A stretch of DNA of 64,000 nucleotides from Allomyces macrogynus ATCC 38327. Taxonomy: Eukaryota; Blastocladiomycota; Blastocladiomycetes; Blastocladiales; Blastocladiaceae. The stretch spans positions 634,792 to 698,791 of the forward strand of contig GG745332.1 in the NCBI GenBank assembly GCA_000151295.1, written 5' to 3'. Positions 24,058 through 53,176 of this stretch are shown piece after piece. The notes beneath the pieces were generated by a model. It was not told the origin of the DNA and made no database searches. It saw only the letters and a list, made by a program, of their open reading frames with translations. The translations under genes and the position numbers were made by a program. How positions within the stretch are numbered: position 1 is the first letter of the stretch; each line of letters opens with the position of its first letter.

Positions 24058-25104
24058 ATGCTCGCTACGACCCTTCGCACCACCGCGACGCGTTCGATCG
24101 CGACGCGTGCCACTGCCGTGGCTGTGCGCACCAAGTACACGCTCCCCGACCTCCGTATGTTTTCCAGCACGCGAATGAAGACCATCGACACTCCACGATG
24201 GGCGGCGGAGAGAGTGAAATGAGCCACCGAGATTGTAACACGCGACAGAGGACTGACGACCACGCGCTGCCCAACTTGCATCGATTGAACAGCGTACGAC
24301 TACAACGCGCTCGAGCCCGTCGTTTCGGTACGATTCTTGCTCTACTATGTCCTCCCGACCACGAAATATCTGTTGCTGACGCGCTCCCACTGCTGAATTC
24401 CATCGACCAGGCCGAGATCATGCGCCTGCACCACTCCAAGCACCACCAGACCTACGTGACCAACCTGAACATGCTCGAGGAGAAGCTTGTTGACGCGCAG
24501 GCCAAGAAGGACATCAACACCGAGCTCGCACTCCTCGGCGGGCTCAAGTTCAACGGCGGGGGTCACATCAACCACACCATCTTCTGGACCAACCTGTGCT
24601 CGCCCAAGGACTTTGATCTGCCGCAGGGTACGTGGTTCGCGACGCGTCCATTTGTTCTTGTCTTGCGTGCTTACTTTTCCCGCAACTTGTCGATTCTCAG
24701 GTGAGCTTCTGACGGCGATCAACCGCGACTTTGGCTCGCTCGAGACGCTCGTGTCCAAGTTCAACACGGCCACCGTGGCCGTGCAGGGGTCCGGCTGGGG
24801 CTGGATCGGCCTGAACAAGGAGACGCAGAAGTTGCAGATTGCGACGACGGCTAACCAGGACCCGCTCCAGGCCACGACCGGTCTGATCCCACTCCTTGGT
24901 GTCGACGTTTGGGTACGATTCGAATTATGGCGAACTGACGCGACGCACAGCTCGACCGTGTGCCTGACCACCGCTTTGTGCCGTTGCTAGGAACACGCCT
25001 ATTACCTCGACTACAAGAACGCGCGCCCCGACTACCTCAAGGCCATTTGGGGCGTCGTCAACTGGAAGAACGTGGCCGAGCGCTACCAGGCCGCCAAGAA
25101 CTAA
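24058..25104 (+). CDS. SOD2: Mitochondrial manganese superoxide dismutase
   Basis: Converts superoxide to hydrogen peroxide and oxygen in the mitochondrial matrix. Five exons: 24058-24154, 24293-24327, 24411-24627, 24701-24912, 24991-25104; introns 138, 83, 73 and 78 bp, all GT-AG. The product is 224 residues. The first ~28 residues ([20 protein letters not shown]) are a basic, Ser/Thr/Ala-rich presequence. Mature protein starts near [20 protein letters not shown]. Metal ligands are in [11 protein letters not shown] (His), [14 protein letters not shown] (His) and [15 protein letters not shown] (Asp and His). The 35-nt second exon is needed to make [12 protein letters not shown]. The C-terminus [14 protein letters not shown] is standard. 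Reading straight through intron 2 gives a false open frame starting at 24198. Confidence 0.97.
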
Positions 25105-25343
25105 ACTGTCGTCGCTTCGCCAGTTTTTGTGAGGGGGTTCTGATTGTAGTGCGCGTCGGCTCGATGGCGCAGTGGTCATTGTCCAGAGGAGGGGCAGAAT
25201 GCAAATCGATTTTGTGATCCACACGCAAACCGAGCTGAGACTGTGCGTGCCAAGGCGATGCCAAACAAGGACAGTAACCAAAAGCATCCGTTCAGTCTCG
25301 ACTGTTAGATTCCAGCTTCAACAAAAAAGAATCAAAACACGCA
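25105..25343. other. Convergent 3' intergenic region SOD2/SNRNP27
   Basis: 239 bp holding the two 3' UTRs. No other feature seen. Confidence 0.5.
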
Positions 25344-26025
25344 CTACATCCGCTTGGGCGAGAGCGGGCGATTGAACCCGCCCTTCCTGTTCATATATTG
25401 TCGGTACTCGCGCGGATTTTGCACTCGAGCCTCGGACACGTCGGCGTGCTTCTTTTCCTACAGAGCGCAACGAGGAAAGGGTCAGCACTTCCATTTCGCG
25501 ATCCTGGACAACGGATCGACGTACCTTGGTCGTCTCGAACCCGCCAAACCCCATCAACCGGCGCATCTGCTCCTCCTGGTCGAGTTCCTCCATATTCTCC
25601 GGCACCTCGGGTGCGGCCGGTTCCGTCACTGCCGCCTTCGTCTCCTCCTCCTCCACCTTCTTCTCCTTTGCTCCATTCTCGTCCTTGGCCTCATCGTCGC
25701 GCTGCCTCCGTGGCGACCGCGACCGGTCCCTTCCACGACGGTCCCGCTCGCGGTTGCGACTACGACTGCGTTCCCTGCGTTCCCGACGCTCGCGCTCAAG
25801 TTCGCGTGCGCGCCGGATCACTTCGGCGCGGTCAATCACGCGGCCGAACTCGTCGTATTGCGGAGCGCCGTCGTCCGCAGCGGAAGAGGAGGGGCGTGCG
25901 CGGTCGTAGTCGTCGGTCCGGCGCGGCGGGTAGTCGCGGTCGCGTGAACTGCGACCATAATCGCGCGAGGACCGGGAGGGTGGGGGCGCGGGGGCCGAGC
26001 GGCGGTCGCGGCGGCGGTAGTCCAT
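25344..26025 (-). CDS. SNRNP27: U4/U6.U5 tri-snRNP 27 kDa protein
   Basis: Component of the tri-snRNP in pre-mRNA splicing, nuclear. Exons 26025-25525 (167 codons) and 25457-25344 (37 codons plus stop), intron 67 bp with GTACGT donor, giving 204 residues. The N-terminal half is Arg/Asp/Ser-rich (MDYRRRDRRSAPAPPPSRSS, ERSRSRNRERDRRGRDRSRS), as in the family. The diagnostic C-terminal domain begins EEQMRRLMGFGGFETTK in exon 1. It continues after the splice as EKKHADVSEARVQNPREYRQ and YMNRKGGFNRPLSPKRM. The splice is therefore fixed by the conserved domain. Reading through the intron gives an unrelated tail and a longer upstream start at 26331; both are rejected. Confidence 0.93.
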
Positions 26026-26422
26026 GCTGCGCGGGGGTGGAGAGTCGTGTACGGCGGGATGGGGGAGTTGGGTCTTGTCGTTGCTGCCGTTCGACGACGA
26101 TTTTGTTGCCTTGGTTGGAGTGAAGACGACAGGAGTGACATGGTCTTGGTTTGATTCGAATGCGGGTGAGCGGGCTGTCAGGACCATCAGCTCTGGGAAA
26201 CTGGCTGGCTGCACTGTTGCTTCTGCTTTCGGGACTCTCTTCCGCACGTTCAACTTGCCACGCGCGCTCAGTCGCCGAAAACGCGTGCGATGACACAGGA
26301 TACGATGAATATATTCAATGAGAAGCGACACGAGATGCGCCCCCTTCCCTCATCCACTCCGCCGCGCGCGGTAGCGACGCACTTCCACACGCTCGGCCCG
26401 CACCCGACGCGCCCAACCGCGC
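26026..26422. other. Intergenic region SNRNP27 5' / RPN11 3'
   Basis: 397 bp; should contain the SNRNP27 promoter and the RPN11 3' UTR. No further structure recognised. Confidence 0.5.
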
Positions 26423-31643: not shown

Positions 31644-34600
31644 ATGTCGGCCCTCCAACTTCTCCGCCGATTACGCCACGTCGCGCCCGTGCGCGTCTTC
31701 TCCACCCAGTTCCGGGCCTATTCCGGTGGCGATTTCTGGGACAACGTCGACGCGCAATCCGGCACCAACAAGGGCACAAGCAGTACCAAAGACGACGGCA
31801 CCAACGCCGCACCGCGCGGCAAGCGCTCGAGTACATACGACCGCCGTCCCGGATGGGGTACTGGCGGCCCACGCGCGCCACGCGACCCGAACGCGCCGTT
31901 TACGCCGCGTGCGCCGCGGGACCCGAATGCGCCGTTTGTGCCCCGCGCTCCCCGCGATCCGAATGCGCCGTTTGTCCCGCGCCAGCCGCGCGATCAAGGT
32001 CAACTTGGCGGTGGGTTCGCGCCGCGCGCTCCACGCGATCCGAACCAGCCCTTCGTGCCTCGTGCCCCGCGCGACCAGAGCCAGTTTGGCGGCAGCTTTG
32101 CGCCGCGCGCTCCTCGCGACCCCAACGCACCGTTTACTCCGCGCACTCCGCGGGATCCGAATGCGCCGTTCACGCCGCGTGGAGATAACTTCCAGCGCCG
32201 TTCGCCGCCACCCACGGGGTATAACGACATCATGTCGCGAGCGCAGGAGCTCGGTGAGCGCACCTGGCAGCAAGGTGGGCCGCGGCGTGGTCCTCGTGCG
32301 GCCGCACCAGCTCCGGCCGCGAGCGAACCTGCGGCTGCGGCGCCTGCGTCGGCGGTCGAGCCCACGGACCATATGCTCGACGTGGACGCGGACCTCGATT
32401 TGGTCGCCGAAGTCGCGAAACCGTCGCGCGCGGGACGGAACCACTATCATCCGCACGAGACGTTCCATCACCAGAAGAGCGTGGACGCGAAGCACCGCGC
32501 GCCCATTGACCCGGAGGTGGCCGCAGCGATGCGCAAGGAGGAGGAGGAGGCGCTGAGTAAGCGCGGGTCCGGACACATTCACCGCGCCGAATTCAAGGAT
32601 AAGGTGTCGCGGTTCCGTGCAGGGCGGGACGAGGACGAAGAGTTTGACGAGGATGATGTGGACGAGGTGGTGGTGCCGCGCGGTGGACCGATGCCGGCGT
32701 CGTTGGCGCCGCTCAAGCAGCGCAAGAAGCGCAAGCCGGGACGCGTCACGCAGCCGGCCAAGGTGCAGTTGCCGGAGGCGATCACGGTCGCGAATTTGAG
32801 CCAGATGTTGGTGGTTCCTGTTGGTATGGGGGGTGGAGAGTGTTTGGAAAGATTGTGTGGTTCCACGACTGATTGGGTTGCGCATTGGGTGTAGGTGTCC
32901 TGCAGCGCCAGGTCAAGTCTCTCCTCGAGCTCGACTTTGAGGTCGCATCCGATTACGGTTCGTTTCCCCCTACTTTGTCCATTCTACGTCCTCGGTACTG
33001 ACCACTCTCGATCCACACCAGTCCTGAACGCCGAAATGGCCACGCTGGTCGCCAACGAGGTCGCTCCGCGCGTTGAAATCGTCGCGCCGAACGTGACCGC
33101 CGAAGACGATATAATGCCGCGCCGTCTGCCGTTGGCACCTGAAGAGTACGCCAAGCTTCCGCTCCGCGCACCCGTCGTCACGATTATGGGCCACGTCGAC
33201 CATGGTAAGACGACGCTGCTCGACACGCTACGCAAGAGTGCTGTCGCCGCATCGGAAGCCGGCGGGATCACGCAGCACATTGGTGCCTTCGAAGGTTCGT
33301 GCTGCTTCTTTTTTTTACCCAGAGCAATGAACTTGCGACTTACCGAATTTTGCGTTCTAGTGGCTCTGCCCGGCGGCAAGATCACATTCCTCGACACGCC
33401 CGGCCATGCGGCGTTTGAGAACATGCGCGCGCGCGGCGCCAACGTGACCGATATTGTCGTGCTCGTCGTGGCCGCTGACGACGGTGTGATGCCGCAGACG
33501 CGCGAGGCCATCAAGCACGCGCACGCGGCCGATGTCCCGATCATTGTCGCGATTAACAAGTGCGACAAGCCGGGAATCGACAAGGTGCGTGTTTTCGCCA
33601 ATGCCAGCCGGTGGTGCGAATCGACACAGGCTAAATTGAGCTGGTAACGATTGCAGGAACGGATCAAGAACCAGCTGCTCGAGCACGACGTGCAGATCGA
33701 GGAACTCGGCGGCGACACGATGGCCGTGGAGATATCCGCGCTCAAGGTACTGCCAAGATCACCTGCACGTCTTCCCCACGTCGCCTCCCAAATCTCACCC
33801 CACCGTCGCACCGTACTAGGGCACTGGCCTCGACGACCTGGAAGAATCGATCCTGACGCTCGCCGAAATCCAAGAACTCCGTGCCGACCCGACTGGTCCC
33901 GTCGAGGGCATGACGCTCGAATCGCAAGTCAAGAAGGGCCGCGGCAGTACCGCGACGGTCCTCGTCAAGGAGGGCACCCTGCGCATTGGCGACATTTTGG
34001 TCGCAGGCACATCATGGTGCCGCGTCAAGTCCATGGCAACCGACGCAGGTGTGCAATTGCAGGAAGCGCCACCGGCAACTCCCGTGGAAGTGTTGGGCTG
34101 GCGCGAGCTGCCAGCCGCGGGTGAGCGCGTCGTGCAAGTGGACTCGGAGGACGCGGCCAAGAAGGCGATTGCTGCGCGCGAGCGCCGGATGGCGCGTGCG
34201 AAAGCCGTGTCGGCGATTGATGAGATCAATGCCGCGCGAATCAAGGCGGCTGCGGCCGCCGCGGAATTGGCCAAGGTGAAGCGCAAAAACCGCGCGGCGG
34301 CGTTGCGCGCGCAGGGTACGGACCGTGGGGACGGGCCCGCCGTGACCCCCGTCGCAGTGATTGTCAAGGGCGACGTGTCCGGGTCGGTCGAGGCCGTCGT
34401 CGATGCGCTCGCAAAGATCGATCACCCGGAACTGAACGTGACCGTGTCGGCCTCGGGCGTCGGCGCGATCACGGAGTCGGACGTGGAGCGCACGTATGCC
34501 GCGACCACGGCAATTGTTGGGGCCGGTGCTGAGGGTCGCGCCGCGTCTGGAATGGCGTCGGCCGGGTTGGTTGTTGGGTTCAATGTCAAGCCCGACAAGA

Positions 34601-39037: not shown

Positions 39038-39328
39038 GGTTGGTGGTTGGATGTTGGAGGGAGCGAGAGGAGGGTGGTCGGCGTCGACTCGATGGCAACG
39101 ACGCGGTGGGGAGAGAGAGAGGCAGAGCGACCAAGGTCGTGCTGTTCGGGTGCAGCTGCTTGTCGTCGAGCCGCGCACTTGGCCGTTCAGGCGGCACTCG
39201 TGGCCTGACGCGCCCAAAATGACGCTGGAACATGAACCAACCAGGCAATCCGGCTAACAATCATTTTACTCGATTTATTCGCTGGTAACACCACCACCAC
39301 CACCACCACCCGCGGCGCTCTGCAACTC
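39038..39328. other. Intergenic region upstream of the gapped gene
   Basis: 291 bp holding the promoter of the minus-strand gene starting at 39037 and the 3' UTR of the epimerase gene. A short CAC/ACC repeat lies at about 39290-39311. Confidence 0.5.
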
Positions 39329-40431
39329 TCACAACAGCGCGCGCAGCACCTGCCCGGCACGCCGCGTCTCGCCCGGCGCGACCGAGACCGCATTCGGCAC
39401 AACCACGTCCCCGACCTCGACACAGACCATATGCCGGTACTCATCGTCCCCGAAATCGGCCATGGCCTTGGCCTTGTCCACCCACGGGTTCCAGACGACC
39501 ACGTCGCGGAACGCCGTCTCGCCATGAGTCCGCACAATCTCGACCGCGGGCCGCCCGCCGCTCAACACATGCAAGTGCGACTCGGCCGCGGGCACGACAT
39601 TCTGGTAGACGCGGTCCGTCTCTTCCTTGATGGGCAGCGCCGGGAACGCCTGCGTCGTCGGATCGCGGTCGGCAATCGCCTTATTCACGTAAAGGTGGCC
39701 CTCGAGGCCGCGGATTTCGGTTTTCTCGATCGCGTCGACGCGCAGGTAGGTGTGCAGCAGCCACGTGAAGGGCATGTCAAACTCGGTTGTGGTCGCGAGG
39801 TTGGTCGCGGCCAGGTCCGTGGCGAGCGTGTGGTGCACGGCGTCGACCGTGACCGTGTACTCGAGCCGGAACGGCGTGGGCCACGCGGTGCGCGCGGCGA
39901 GGGACAAGTCGGACGAGGTCAGGACAAAAACGACGGTCGCCTTGGTCTCGTCGGGGCTAACGTCGGTGCGCAGGACGCGCCAGGTGGAGGTGCGCGCGAA
40001 CCCGTGCTGCGGGAGCGGCGCACCCGGGTAGGTGCCAAATTGCGGGAAGACGAGCGGGATGCTGGCAAGGCGTGGTGAGGGTTCATGTCAGGCCGCGTCT
40101 GGCCAAGTCTGAGAGAGGAAAACGCGCCCGTACCCGCCACTAGAGCATGGAGAGCCGAGTAACAACACGCCGCCGGATATGATGAGCATCTGATCCGTGA
40201 TTGCAACAAAATGCAGCCATGCAAAGCGCACCGAATCGGCTTGGATCCGTCAAGAATGGCCTTGCTGCTCAAGAAGAGCATTTCGCGGCCGTTGACGGTC
40301 CAGCTCGTGACGGTGGCGCCATGCAGGTAGATGGTGCAGGTCGCAGGCACGGCGCCCGTGGTCGTAGGCGTGGCCAAGGCCGGCGGCGTCAGCGAGATGA
40401 CGACCTTGTCTTGCAGCGTCTCGATGGGCAT
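39329..40431 (-). CDS. Glucose-6-phosphate 1-epimerase (hexose-6-phosphate mutarotase)
   Basis: Interconverts alpha- and beta-glucose 6-phosphate in the cytosol; orthologous in type to yeast YMR099C. Exons 40431-40232, 40139-40134 (6 nt) and 40061-39329; introns 92 and 72 bp; 312 residues. Start MPIETLQDKVVISLTPPA resembles the yeast start. Family landmarks: YLHGATVTSWTVNGREMLFL, SSKAILDGSKPIRGGIPLVF, PQHGFARTSTWRVL, FDMPFTWLLHTYLRVDAIE, ETDRVYQNV, VVVWNPWVDKAKAMADFGDD and VCVEVGDVVVPNAVSVAPGE. The catalytic His and Glu are in PQHGFAR and VCVEVG. The middle 6-nt exon supplies the GG of the invariant RGGIPLVFP; direct joining of the two large exons would lose two conserved glycines. Confidence 0.94.
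40134..40139 (-). other. 6-nt microexon of the glucose-6-phosphate 1-epimerase gene
   Basis: On the minus strand the context is GCTCTAG|TGGCGG|GTACGG. Joined to the upstream exon end (ATT CG) and downstream exon start (C ATC CCG) it gives CGT GGC GGC ATC, i.e. Arg-Gly-Gly-Ile, the invariant motif of the family. Both flanking introns (92 and 72 bp) have canonical ends and normal sizes for this window. Confidence 0.85.
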
Positions 40432-45471: not shown

Positions 45472-46578
45472 CTACTTGCCCTTGCCAAACATCGAATCAA
45501 GCTCCTGGGCCGCCTCGGCAATCCCGCGCGCCACGTCCTTCACGCCGAAATACGAGTACCAGGTCAAATAACCGGCGACGAAGCGCAGCACCATGGCCGC
45601 GTGGTCGTACGTCTCGTCGAGCGGCTTGGCAGCGGCCACGAGCAGGTCAATCATGGCGTTGACAGCACCTGCATCAAAAAGTCCTGGCGTCTGCCGAATC
45701 CCGGCACGAATTGCGACCAGGTGCGCGAGATACTGCGCAAAATCCTGATCCGGGTGCCCGAGCCGTGAGCATTCCCAGTCGAGCACCGTGATGCGCGTGG
45801 GCGCGTCGGCATTGTCGAGCAGAATCGAGTTGGGCCACAGGTCACCAAAAATACGGCCGGACCGGGCGCGCGGATGCTTGAGCGCTGCGGCAATTCGGTT
45901 GGCCCACTTTTCCGCGTCAGCGCCGAGCAACTCGCACTCGGCAATCGTCCTTTGGAAGCTTGGCTCGAGACTGCCATCAAACAGCGCCGTCATGTCTGGG
46001 TTCATGTCCTTGGTTGCCCCCGCTTTTGGCACAGCACGCGTGAACGCAATAATCGCGTCGGCGAGTGCAGCGAGCTGGTCACGCGGGCGCGGCGACTCGA
46101 AGTATTTGAGCATGAGCATTGCGTTGGGCGTGCCCACGTCTTCCATGATCAGCGCGTATCGCGTCCTGCTGAAATGGTATGGCGTCGGAACAGTCCATGG
46201 GATCTTGGCGCTTGATCTCGACGGGGCCCTGCGAGCAGCGATCAAGACGAGTGCATTATGCTCATGCACAGCGCGGTCCTGCGGCAAGTCAACTTCCCCG
46301 TTGGTGCGCATCTGCGGTGCGAAATACTTGAGAATAAATGTCGTAGCCGTTGAGGGGATTGCCGCATAGCCTTCTGCGGGCAGTGGTACTCCATGCTGGA
46401 CGAAATCAGGACCAGACGCGAGCATGACACGCCAAACGTAGTTGGCGAAGCCGCCGGAGAGCAAGTCGACGTCGGCGACGCGTTTCTTGAGCGCCGGGTC
46501 GAGCAATGTGGCCGTATAGCGCGAAACGCCCTCGGACGTCGTCAGATCAAGGGCGGGCGCCGCGTCGGAGGACGCCAT
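45472..46578 (-). CDS. APH-fold small-molecule kinase with altered HGD motif
   Basis: Aminoglycoside phosphotransferase/choline-kinase-like fold; substrate unknown. Single exon, 368 residues. N-terminal lobe: DLLSGGFANYVWRVML (glycine loop) and TTFILKYFAPQMRTNGEVDL (Lys on the ATP-binding strand). The C-lobe has the catalytic block RSGRIFGDLWPNSILLDNAD and the metal-binding ITVLDWECSRLGHPDQDFAQ. The usual HGDxxxxN is here FGDLWPNS: the His is Phe and the Asn sits one position early, while the Asp of the loop and the Asp of DWE are kept. C-terminal helices (YDHAAMVLRFVAGYLTWYSY) are typical of fungal APH-domain proteins. Soluble; no targeting signal. Activity may be changed or lost, but the frame is undamaged. 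Confidence 0.8.
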   Translation of the reverse strand: MASSDAAPALDLTTSEGVSRYTATLLDPALKKRVADVDLLSGGFANYVWRVMLASGPDFVQHGVPLPAEGYAAIPSTATTFILKYFAPQMRTNGEVDLPQDRAVHEHNALVLIAARRAPSRSSAKIPWTVPTPYHFSRTRYALIMEDVGTPNAMLMLKYFESPRPRDQLAALADAIIAFTRAVPKAGATKDMNPDMTALFDGSLEPSFQRTIAECELLGADAEKWANRIAAALKHPRARSGRIFGDLWPNSILLDNADAPTRITVLDWECSRLGHPDQDFAQYLAHLVAIRAGIRQTPGLFDAGAVNAMIDLLVAAAKPLDETYDHAAMVLRFVAGYLTWYSYFGVKDVARGIAEAAQELDSMFGKGK

Positions 46579-48640
46579 TATTCTGTGGGGTGCGATTTCT
46601 GAACCGTTTGCAGGGAGCGCGGTGATGGGGATGAGCAGAGGTCGAATATTTTATAGGGAATGTGTCAACGAGTTGTGACGTGTGGTTCGGTTGACTCAAT
46701 CTTGGTTGACTCAATCTCGTCAAGCTTGGCGGCAGCGTGGCTGCGATATCGATTGTGCTCCAGTTTGTATTTGTCCCATGCTTTCAGGGATTATCTGTTT
46801 GCTCACTTGCACTTCACGAATGGTCAACAGAGACGCCCTGCTACTTGGCATCAATGTGCTCAATGTCCTCGATTTTTACCTCAACTTGCTCGCCAAGTGT
46901 GGTTGCGGACCAAGGCTTTTGGCGACGACTGCAAAAGGCAAATCTGCATCTACGAGTGCGGCTGACTTGATAACCGCGACCATCAGCACACGCGCCACGA
47001 CCATGGATCCCACTCCGCACGTTTTTGACGTAACGCCAGTCGCTCATGTGCTCAAGTCCGCCCCCTTTGGCACTGCCAGTCCCATTGCCACGTTTGGTGA
47101 CCTGCAGGTTGCTTAGGCCAAGCTCCAAGCATCCCATATTGCGCTCCTGGTATCACTCAATTAAATCGCTGCATTCACCAGCCCAGTCGACTGTGCTGCG
47201 ATTGCACATGCTGCAGAAGTTGAAGTAAGCTTTTCGCATGACAATCCAGCGACTCTGCTCCCAGAGCCATACAGCGGAGAATGTCTGCTTGTTGGAATAT
47301 ACACATAAGATTCTAACTCTATCCCAAGCAACCAGTACCGGCTTGAAGCACTCTCTGCGAGCGGTAACCCTGCTTCTGCATGCTCCTTGCAGATTACCAA
47401 GCTTCAGAACCTGTTCATCAACACTGGGCTCCTGGATCACATTGTGGTCCATGGTCTGTGCCAGGGTCACAACTTGTGACACAACGCCCACTGGTCCTGG
47501 CGCATTCATGGCCCACAATGCTCTCTTGTCAAGTTCTGCTTGCTCATATTTGACAATGTGAATGACCAAACATTGACTTCCAGCAAGGCGTTATAGGTGT
47601 CGCTCCAGGGTAATGACATTTAGAGATTGACTGGGCATCATCTGGCCACACCCCACTCAATGAGTACCTGACATTTGACGAAATGGCCATTCCATGCTCT
47701 TGGCCATGTTGTTGCCCATACTTTTCATCAATGACAGAAGCTGTCATAACTCTGACTGCAAGGGTGAAACAGAGACGTATGAATGGTCTGGAGACTTTAT
47801 TGGGGCTGTGGGCATGCAGTTCAAAGTGGACAATGTCATGGAGGCATGGTTCATGCTTTGCACTTTGTCACTGTCATGCAATGTGCTTGAACTGGAGTGG
47901 CAGCATTCTATGGCCCCAGCAGTAATGAAGAGGTTCTGCAGCACGTTCTCTGAACGCGACACAGTATCAGTGCTGAATGCACATGATGTTTGATCTGATC
48001 CGTGCTGAGTGTGCTTGACAAAGAGCCAAGTATCAAGTGCCCATGTACCTGTGTCTCATTGGGCTCAGGCTTGGCACCTGGGTGGTGGACAAAGTACAGC
48101 AAATGGCTTTACACATTGACAAATTTTTCGCATTGGCAACTTTCATTGTGCACATTTGACCAGCTTGCATGTGTTGATTTTGTGTGGATCAACCAGCCAA
48201 ATGGTGTGCCAGCCATTGTGACAATGTGTGGTGGCGCCAGGATCATTTTGGCGTTTCTTGCATGACAATGGAGTGTCGCTGTTGCTGGAACTGTACCATG
48301 ACAAGTGTTTGCTGGTCACCACGTATCCATCCTACTCAAACGTGTTGGATTAGACTGCCACCAAGAGCCAGACAGGCGGGTGCCCATCCTTTTTATGGAA
48401 GGCACAACCCATGCCAGCCTGCCCTGACCAGGTGACAATGTTATAACTGCAATGTGCCAAAACTATCAAAAACTAACAACAAACACCCATGATGCAGTGC
48501 GCATGGGCTCCCCTGGAAACTGGTGGAGTTCCTTTGTGTGTGCAGCTGTGTGGCCAAGCACACTCTCTTCAACAAAGCGCGCTCTCTGGAAACGAGTATT
48601 GATCAGATCTCATTTGGGCGAGTGGGAACCCAGCCACCAC
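46579..48640. other. CpG-poor gene-free region with plus-strand coding relics
   Basis: The first ~200 bp should contain the promoter of the minus-strand kinase. From about 47,100 CpG becomes rare and TpG/CpA frequent. Short plus-strand frames (46985-47115, MDPTPHVFDVTPVAHVLKSA; 47220-47310, FSHDNPATLLPEPYSGECLL) look like coding remains, and a weakly similar block HDNGVSLLLELYHDKCLLVT recurs near 48260-48340. Stops and frame changes separate them. Nothing intact and no family assigned. Confidence 0.45.
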
Positions 48641-50628: not shown

Positions 50629-53176
50629 CTACGCCACCACCTTTGTCTCCACCTCCTCCACCTCACCCTCGGCCTTGGCCGGCGCCTCCTTGGCCTCCTC
50701 GACGGGCAGCGGGATATCGAGCCGGTGCATCATACTGACACGCTCCTTTTTGTTGACCAGCAGGCCAACCGACACGGGCGCACGCCAGAGCGGGATCCAG
50801 ATCGTCAGCGCCGGGTCCTTCTCATCCTGGAACTTGGCAACGGCGCCTCCGACCGCGAGGGCCTTGAGCTCGTTCGTGACCTTCTCCGACGGCAATGTGG
50901 CAATCAAAGGGCGGTCCTCGAGCAAGAGCGCCGTGACCGTGGCACGATCGAGCTGAATCACGCGCTTCGTGAGCATCGGGGCAATCAGCGCGAGCCCGTC
51001 GTCATTGAACCGGTGCGTGCAGGTCGCAAGCGCCGACTGGTCGTGGATACGCGAAAACAGCCTGACGCCCGTGTTCACGACCTTGAGCCGGTAGGCGCCC
51101 TTCGCCAGCAGCATTTGCTTGACGGCACTCGAGCACAGGTAAATGGCGCGGTGTGCGGCGGCCTCGGAACGAACGACGAGCTGTGAGGCGGGGAACGAGT
51201 CGGGGAACCCGTAGACGTCCTTGATCGTCTGGTACTCGCCGTCGGCCGACGACAGGAAGACAAACGGCTCCTCGTAGTGCTTCCTGTTCTTGTGCATTTC
51301 GGGGCCGTCGGTCGCGTCAGTCTTGGTCGCGGGTTCGGCGGGAGTCGCGGTGGCTGACCTAGAGCACGCGAAAACGAATAGGTCAGTTTGCTGGAGCAGC
51401 ACTGAAAAAAAGAGAGCAACACGGGACACATACGACTCGGCGGCATCGGCGTCAGGCGAGTCCAGCTTGATTTGTTTCCGCGGGGCAGCCTCGTCGGAAC
51501 TAAACCAAAGCCACCATGACGCCGAGTCAGCACCAAGTGTGTCCCGATTGGGCTCAAAAGGGAAAGAAAAAACAGCACGTACTCGACATCCTCCTCAGCC
51601 TTGCGCTTTTGCGTCGTGGTCTCCTCAGCTGCTTGGTCCACGACCTTGGCCGCCGCCGCCACGTCGTCCGACGTCGCCTCCTCCATCTCGGCATCACCCT
51701 CGTCCTCGGGCATGGTATCAACGACCGGGTCCTTGTCACGCCGATTGCGCGGGTTATGCGGACCCTTAGGCCCCTTTTGCCGGCGCACCTGCTGGTCCTC
51801 CGGCAGCTCGCCGTACTGGTTGGCGCCCTCGGCAAACACGGGCTCGGCCACCTTTTCGAGCAACGCCACGAAGAACCCGCCCGTGTTCTGCAAGTGCGGG
51901 TAGATGCGCAGGCACCGCTCAATGTTGAGCGCGTCGATATCGGTGGGCGGGAAGTAAGACGGCGTGATGCGGGCCTTGTCCTCGTTGGGCACCTCCGAGA
52001 ACTGCGAGTAGAAGGTGGCCTCCTTGGCCTTGTACGACGGCACCGTCCAGGTTTTGACGCCCGGGCGACGAAGCAGTTCCGGGAGCATCTTGGACGCGTC
52101 GACAAGCCGCACCGCACCACCGCACCGCTTGAGCGCAGCCGCGACGACGGCCTCGTTCTCGATCGGGTTCATCGAGCACGTCGAGTAGACGAGCTTGCCT
52201 CCGACCTTGGTCAACGCAATCGCGCGCATCAAAATGCGCAGCTGTAGGAAGTGCAGTGCCGACCCTTCGTTGGGCGTCCACGACCGCCAAATCAGCGGGT
52301 TCTTGCGCATCGTGCCGTCGCCCGAGCACGGCACGTCAGCGAGAATGCGGTCAAACTTGAGCTGCTGTCCCGTGGCCGGGTCGTGCAGCGATGGGAACAT
52401 TTGCGCAGCGTGGTTGGTGATGAGCAGGCACGGCGTCTGCAGACGCTTCGTCTGGTGCACCAGCATGTAGGCGCGCTTGCCGTCAGCGTCGTTGGCAACG
52501 ACCAGACCGTCGGGCAGCTGGCCTTCGACGTCAGTCGCGTCCACGGCCTCAATCAGCTGTGCCGTCTTGGACCCGGGGGCTGCGCACATGTCGAGGACGT
52601 GGTGGTGCGGCTGCACGTCGAGCAAGAGCGGCGGGATCATCGAGACGGCCTCCTGGCGCGAAATGTTGCCAATTTCCGACTCGGACGTCAGGAACTGGTG
52701 GAACCGCTTGAGCGCCGGCGACTTGCGAATGGCCGTGCGCGACGCATCGTACTGGTAGGCGAGTCCCTCCGGGTACCACGGAATTTGGGTGGGCGGCGCA
52801 ATCTTGACGCCGTCGACCTCGATGTTCTGCAGGGACGGGAAAAATTTGCGCTGGCTGTTCTCGGCCAGGTGCTTGGCGTACCTGGAGATGGTTCAGGTCA
52901 AAAGGGTAAGCATTTTGCCATGAGAGAACTCGGCGTCTGACGGGAGAGCACATACGAGCGCGAGCCCGTGAAGCGGAATGTGGTGGGCAGCTGGCTCTTG
53001 AGCGAGGTCATGAACGTGTCCCACTCGGCCTCGGACAAAATGCCTTGGGCCTTGTAGTAGGCCTCGAAATTGGCATTGTTGTAGTCAATGGCGGCGTAGC
53101 TCGAGGCCGGCTTGCGCTCGACGGGCTTTTCGGCACGGGCCTTGCGCTCGCTGCGTTTCTTGTGGTGGCGGGCCAT
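50629..53176 (-). CDS. TRM4: tRNA (cytosine-5) methyltransferase Trm4/NSUN2
   Basis: Nuclear AdoMet enzyme that makes m5C at several tRNA positions. Exons 53176-52956, 52881-51583, 51499-51434 (66 nt), 51358-50629; introns 74, 83 and 75 bp; 771 residues. Start MARHHKKRSERKARAEKPVE matches the basic family start; an in-frame ATG at 53242 (MASVARQFARAASQF) would add 22 residues. Landmarks: FRFTGSRSYAKHLAENSQRK, IPWYPEGLAYQYDASRTAIR, IGNISRQEAVSMIPPLLLDV, AdoMet loop VLDMCAAPGSKTAQLIEAVD, release Cys in ILADVPCSGDGTMRKNPLIW and catalytic Cys in LVYSTCSMNPIENEAVVAAA, then IYPHLQNTGGFFVALLEKV. The variable acidic linker is encoded by the small third exon (SDEAAPRKQIKLDSPDADAA). The C-terminal domain resumes at RKHYEEPFVFLSSADGEYQT. 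It is intact although it borders the relic block. Confidence 0.96.

Follow-up and report, generated by a model that had tools for sequence, protein, structure and literature searches.

Can a coding exon only six nucleotides long be part of a conserved enzyme gene in an early-diverging fungus? The question is raised by a gene on the minus strand of a 64,000-nucleotide stretch of the Allomyces macrogynus ATCC 38327 genome (contig GG745332.1, positions 634,792 to 698,791; hereafter the window). A sequence-only reading had proposed that six bases in the gap between two obvious exons form a microexon, and the analysis below leads us to the same view: with a probability that we put at roughly 0.93, TGGCGG at 40139-40134 genuinely serves as a 6-nt coding microexon of the Allomyces glucose-6-phosphate 1-epimerase gene and is normally included.

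The gene and the enzyme it encodes

The proposed gene structure, in window coordinates, is as follows.

40232..40431, minus strand: exon 1 of the glucose-6-phosphate 1-epimerase gene, starting with ATG (from the translation)
40140..40231, minus strand: intron 1, 92 nt, GTGCGC...CTCTAG (from the sequence)
40134..40139, minus strand: putative microexon TGGCGG, in phase 2 on both sides, completing Arg and adding Gly-Gly
40062..40133, minus strand: intron 2, 72 nt, GTACGG...GCCAG (from the sequence)
39328..40061, minus strand: exon 2 (coding 40061-39331) with the stop codon (39330-39328), from the PF01263 match in a genome search

Exon 1 ends in phase 2 on the CG of an Arg codon (last letters ...AAGCCGATTCG), and exon 2 begins at 40061 with CATCCCGCTC... 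In the gap separating them, TGGCGG sits between CTCTAG and GTACGG, and the flanks named by the sequence-only reading, TAG and GTACGG, both read as splice-site sequences on the minus strand. Inclusion of the six bases yields an in-frame product of 312 aa that reads KPIRGGIPLVFP; because six bases are two codons, their omission also leaves the frame open, giving 310 aa and the reading KPIRIPLVFP. The translation thus bears out the proposal that a direct join produces KPIR-IPLVFP and that the six bases restore Arg-Gly-Gly-Ile in frame. If a microexon is taken as an internal exon no longer than 15 nt, this one has 6 nt, an AG before it and a GT after it, and restores both frame and Gly-Gly. The start of exon 1 is supported by the N terminus and length of the annotated A. 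macrogynus protein AMAG_03410, which match those of the spliced product.

The gene is present in a single copy: searched with PF01263 and with the gene's DNA, the genome matched only here, and neither search returned a second copy for DNA comparison. An 18-mer spanning the microexon, CTCTAGTGGCGGGTACGG, has a single occurrence in the 54 Mb of the genome. An Rfam scan of the window gave nothing at gathering score. Elsewhere in the window, all in open frames on the minus strand, are matches to an FtsJ methyltransferase domain (1094-2326), SNRNP27 (25318-26349, a weak match), an APH-type phosphotransferase domain (45472-46650) and an RsmB/F-type RNA methyltransferase domain (51075-52892).

Judging by its Aldose_epim domain and its like-named nearest relatives, the gene product is predicted to be glucose-6-phosphate 1-epimerase (hexose-6-phosphate mutarotase). 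The joined protein scores 129.7 bits against PF01263 with the microexon and 122.4 bits without it (cut-off 27). The two glycines had been described as invariant in the family, and in an alignment of 48 homologues, hand-picked from the match lists with two proteins (P0002 and P0003, considered below) excluded, Gly68 and Gly69 do not vary and adjoin the likewise invariant Arg67 and Pro71. In the yeast enzyme, the loop that carries them presumably helps to bind the sugar phosphate. Yeast hexose-6-phosphate mutarotase (PDB 2ciq, 2cir and 2cis) is the best solved relative (E 3.6e-45) and has GSKPVRGGIPLVFP at the same place, whereas in the Allomyces gene this motif would be split across three exons.

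Splice models, chance and splice sites

We enumerated 2621 one- and two-intron models with introns of at least 30 nt, all built on a basic set of 39 donors (GT or GC) and 6 acceptors (AG). The 444 models with an open frame of more than 280 aa were scored against a family profile of 116 homologues, obtained from a list of the best 120 by removing the four from Blastocladiomycota. The top model of all 2621 contained the 6-nt GT-AG exon and scored 321.8 bits, followed at 314.8 bits by a model with a 12-nt exon, a GC donor and an extra Tyr-Gly. Between this second rank and the exon-skipping model, which scored 306.1 bits, 15.7 below the 6-nt exon, came several others that had tiny exons and a GC donor. 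A different splice pair that could supply the glycines had been named as one finding that would count against the microexon; among the enumerated pairs, the 6-nt exon alone gave Gly-Gly without extra residues. When the nearest GT within 60 nt was taken after each AG of the gap, just two candidate exons resulted, TGGCGG and a 21-nt segment at 40189-40169; the latter was rejected, as it gives RCSSYPAA and no Gly-Gly. A stwintron is one intron nested in another, with no coding bases between the two excised pieces. This nested arrangement was also rejected, because dropping the six bases costs the Gly-Gly and 15.7 bits.

The residues sought in our chance test were taken from the protein family and not from the Allomyces DNA. 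The pattern AG-NGGNGG-GT appeared in 0.0004 of 20,000 dinucleotide-preserving shuffles of the 170-nt gap, a frequency that fell to 0.0001 when a YAG acceptor and a GTR donor were required and rose to 0.0024 when a GC donor was also allowed. Both strands of the window together hold four occurrences, the microexon site counted, which corresponds to about 0.003 expected per stretch of the size of the gap.

For comparison with other introns of the window, we used seven from the ribonucleotide reductase, Fe/Mn superoxide dismutase and IF-2 genes, placed by the conserved protein sequence that they join.

13499-13420: intron, 80 nt
13312-13210: intron, 103 nt
24628-24700: intron, 73 nt
24913-24990: intron, 78 nt
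33295-33360: intron, 66 nt
33585-33656: intron, 72 nt
33747-33819: intron, 73 nt

Their donors are GTACGG, GTACGG, GTACGT, GTACGA, GTTCGT, GTGCGT and GTACTG, four of the seven being GTACG, and the microexon-flanking introns, with their lengths of 92 and 72 nt and their GTGCGC and GTACGG donors, are in keeping with them. In a score matrix trained on these seven introns only, the two highest GT or GC donors between 40300 and 39980 were 40133 and 40231. The intron 2 donor at 40133 reached 7.5 bits, which places it at the 99.1st percentile of the 7832 GTs in the window. The intron 1 donor at 40231 reached 3.7 bits (92.5th percentile), less than any of the seven training donors when each was left out in turn (4.5-11.8). 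The intron 1 acceptor at 40140, second best in the stretch, scored 7.3 bits (98.8th percentile of 6141 AGs), and the outer acceptor at 40062, sixth in the stretch, scored 2.0 bits (80.4th percentile), within the spread of the training acceptors (-1.8 to 7.1). No acceptor-like site in the stretch scores higher than a CAG on the minus strand at 40109 (GTTTTCCTCTCTCAG, 9.7 bits), which looks unused; it lies inside intron 2, 25 nt past the donor of that intron and upstream of a branch-like CTGAC found 26 nt from the intron's 3' end. Six other introns were examined for YTNAY: in five it occurs 18-27 nt before the end, and the sixth lacks it. The sole such site of intron 1 is CTCAT, 43 nt from its end, with no nearer YTNAY. 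The low intron 1 donor score, the modest rank of the outer acceptor, the stronger CAG at 40109 and the distant YTNAY of intron 1 count against the proposed structure.

Relatives in the Blastocladiales and rival readings

The closest database protein is AMAG_03410, with 92% identity over its full length and the same length as the spliced product, 312 aa; as annotated it reads RGG and so holds both glycines. Two homologue searches returned 5290 and 6219 matches from about 8000 scored candidates each, and 157 different proteins made up the best 120 of each. Of these 157 listed homologues, 155 carry the motif [RK][GA]G[ICVL]P, in 152 cases as the exact RGGIP. The two without it are P0002 from Catenaria anguillulae and P0003 from Blastocladiella emersonii, whose annotated proteins both read KAIRIPLVFPQFG (KAIRIPLVFP); the alignment gap in each is exactly the two glycine residues. 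Both species belong to the Blastocladiales, as do Allomyces and Sorochytrium, and the Sorochytrium protein (P0033) has Gly-Gly, so the annotated proteins of these relatives divide into two without the two residues and two with them. P0033 also has two insertions that its relatives lack, one of 18 residues between GAT and VTSW and another farther along; they are possibly retained introns in the gene model. When the four Blastocladiomycota proteins were aligned and used for a broader search, the best 120 listed included no further protein named as from the phylum.

The simplest reading of the two gaps suggests a conserved microexon that annotation skipped in Catenaria and Blastocladiella. As far as the annotated proteins tell, the ancestor would have had the microexon and gene prediction would have stepped over it in these two species; in Sorochytrium, the microexon may have been annotated or an intron may have been lost. 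In predicted structure models, residues 61-70 of the A. macrogynus protein have a mean pLDDT of 97, against 86 for residues 51-60 of its Blastocladiella counterpart, which lacks the two glycines. The lower confidence around the join in Blastocladiella may fit a faulty gene model there, a weak indication. On these sequence comparisons, the exon probably is old and predates the split between Blastocladiaceae and Catenariaceae, being in place before the Catenaria lineage separated from that of Allomyces and Blastocladiella.

The same two proteins could be read the other way, with the six bases occurring by chance, the exons joined directly, and an enzyme in these fungi that does without the two glycines. 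The outer splice sites do pair in frame and both relatives' annotated proteins do have the direct join, but this reading is disfavoured by the Gly-Gly of the annotated A. macrogynus and Sorochytrium proteins, by the rarity of the motif in shuffles and by the loss in family score, with the pLDDT difference adding a weak point against it; we regard it as highly improbable. We think it just as improbable that the glycines come from a larger or different internal exon, or through a non-GT donor. Although the 12-nt GC-donor exon beats skipping and the strongest acceptor-like site is the one at 40109, the Tyr-Gly that the 12-nt exon adds is absent from the A. macrogynus protein, its model falls 7 bits under that of the 6-nt exon, and a join of 40231 to 40109 shifts the frame.

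Somewhat less remote, though still unlikely, is alternative splicing, in which inclusion would give the active enzyme and skipping a form that keeps the frame but loses the conserved Arg-Gly-Gly loop. Both forms are indeed in frame, the annotated Catenaria and Blastocladiella proteins match the skipped form, and a glucose-controlled switch involving a 20-nt microexon is described for Trichoderma virens in the available part of PMC11121469. Against this stand the retention of Gly-Gly in nearly all listed homologues and the site scores: the sites bordering the microexon have good scores and the outer sites lower ones, which makes the exon-skipping pair the poorer one, and since skipping needs two weaker sites, it should stay low. 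A combined proposal, that the exon is older than the family split, has had six bases ever since and is also adjustable in its inclusion, is improbable to a similar degree, regulation being its least supported part. For Allomyces, a normally included microexon is our preferred reading.

Proposed splicing of the six-nucleotide exon and its significance

The microexon would be flanked by two ordinary short introns, each recognized across the intron and excised one after the other. As the other introns of the window are of 66-103 nt, intron-by-intron recognition and sequential removal can explain the splicing without special machinery, and since short introns can be recognized singly, an exon too small for exon-spanning contacts would be no barrier in itself. 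Complexes at sites six bases apart would obstruct each other, so that removal is probably sequential. Intron 2 is probably the first to leave, with its better, consensus donor and its CTGAC branch-like site; the microexon would then be the 5' end of exon 2, and intron 1 would be excised from there. The eMIC domain (SRRM3/4) is linked to regulated animal microexons. A search of the genome for this domain (PF15230) gave no match, but control genomes gave none either, and the same was true of the RBFOX-type domain PF12414; cwf21 (PF08312) was found.

Small plant microexons (1-15 nt), as far as the available text of PMC8831610 describes them, resemble the Allomyces exon in being very short, coding, conserved and mostly missing from reference annotation; most of those found in that study were unannotated. 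Their splicing depends on strong flanking-intron signals, both introns cannot be processed simultaneously, and the majority of those examined showed more downstream-first intron removal, the order that we propose for Allomyces. The same source names a 6-nt animal microexon, and it shows the plant microexons by RNA-seq, whereas the Allomyces exon is known from sequence alone. These observations uphold part of the earlier suggestion that an exon this short needs special recognition, in that plant microexons do use strong flanking-intron signals and leave too little room for the two introns to be processed together. As a general requirement it was overstated, since it presumes exon definition, whereas the window introns are short and fungal exons of 5-6 bp are known.

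Among the latter, the accessible portion of PMC1184071 gives 6 bp as the shortest exon in Phanerochaete P450 genes, and that of PMC9142197 gives minimum exons of 5 and 6 bp in two basidiomycetous bglA genes. These exons are of the same size as the Allomyces exon and also lie beside short introns, but they occur in Basidiomycota and in other genes, whereas the Allomyces exon is from Blastocladiomycota and carries a nearly invariant Gly-Gly. The Trichoderma Xlr2 microexon, as presented in the part of PMC11121469 cited above, is likewise fungal and was missed by the consensus gene model, as we propose for the Allomyces relatives; it is 20 nt long and glucose-regulated, whereas the Allomyces exon has 6 nt and no sign of regulation. 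Our literature search found no paper combining microexon and Allomyces. With exons of 5-6 bp already reported in other fungi, the interest of the Allomyces case is its fungal group and its likely age.

If these readings are right, an early-diverging group of fungi, a sequenced member of which is relatively intron-poor according to the available part of PMC8476143, has retained an exon of 6 nt, and in two public genomes of the group the model of this enzyme is wrong. The case would also suggest a way to find more such exons, through family-invariant residues that are missing from annotated proteins of these fungi. The gene would then offer a natural test of a short-intron spliceosome facing two introns six bases apart.
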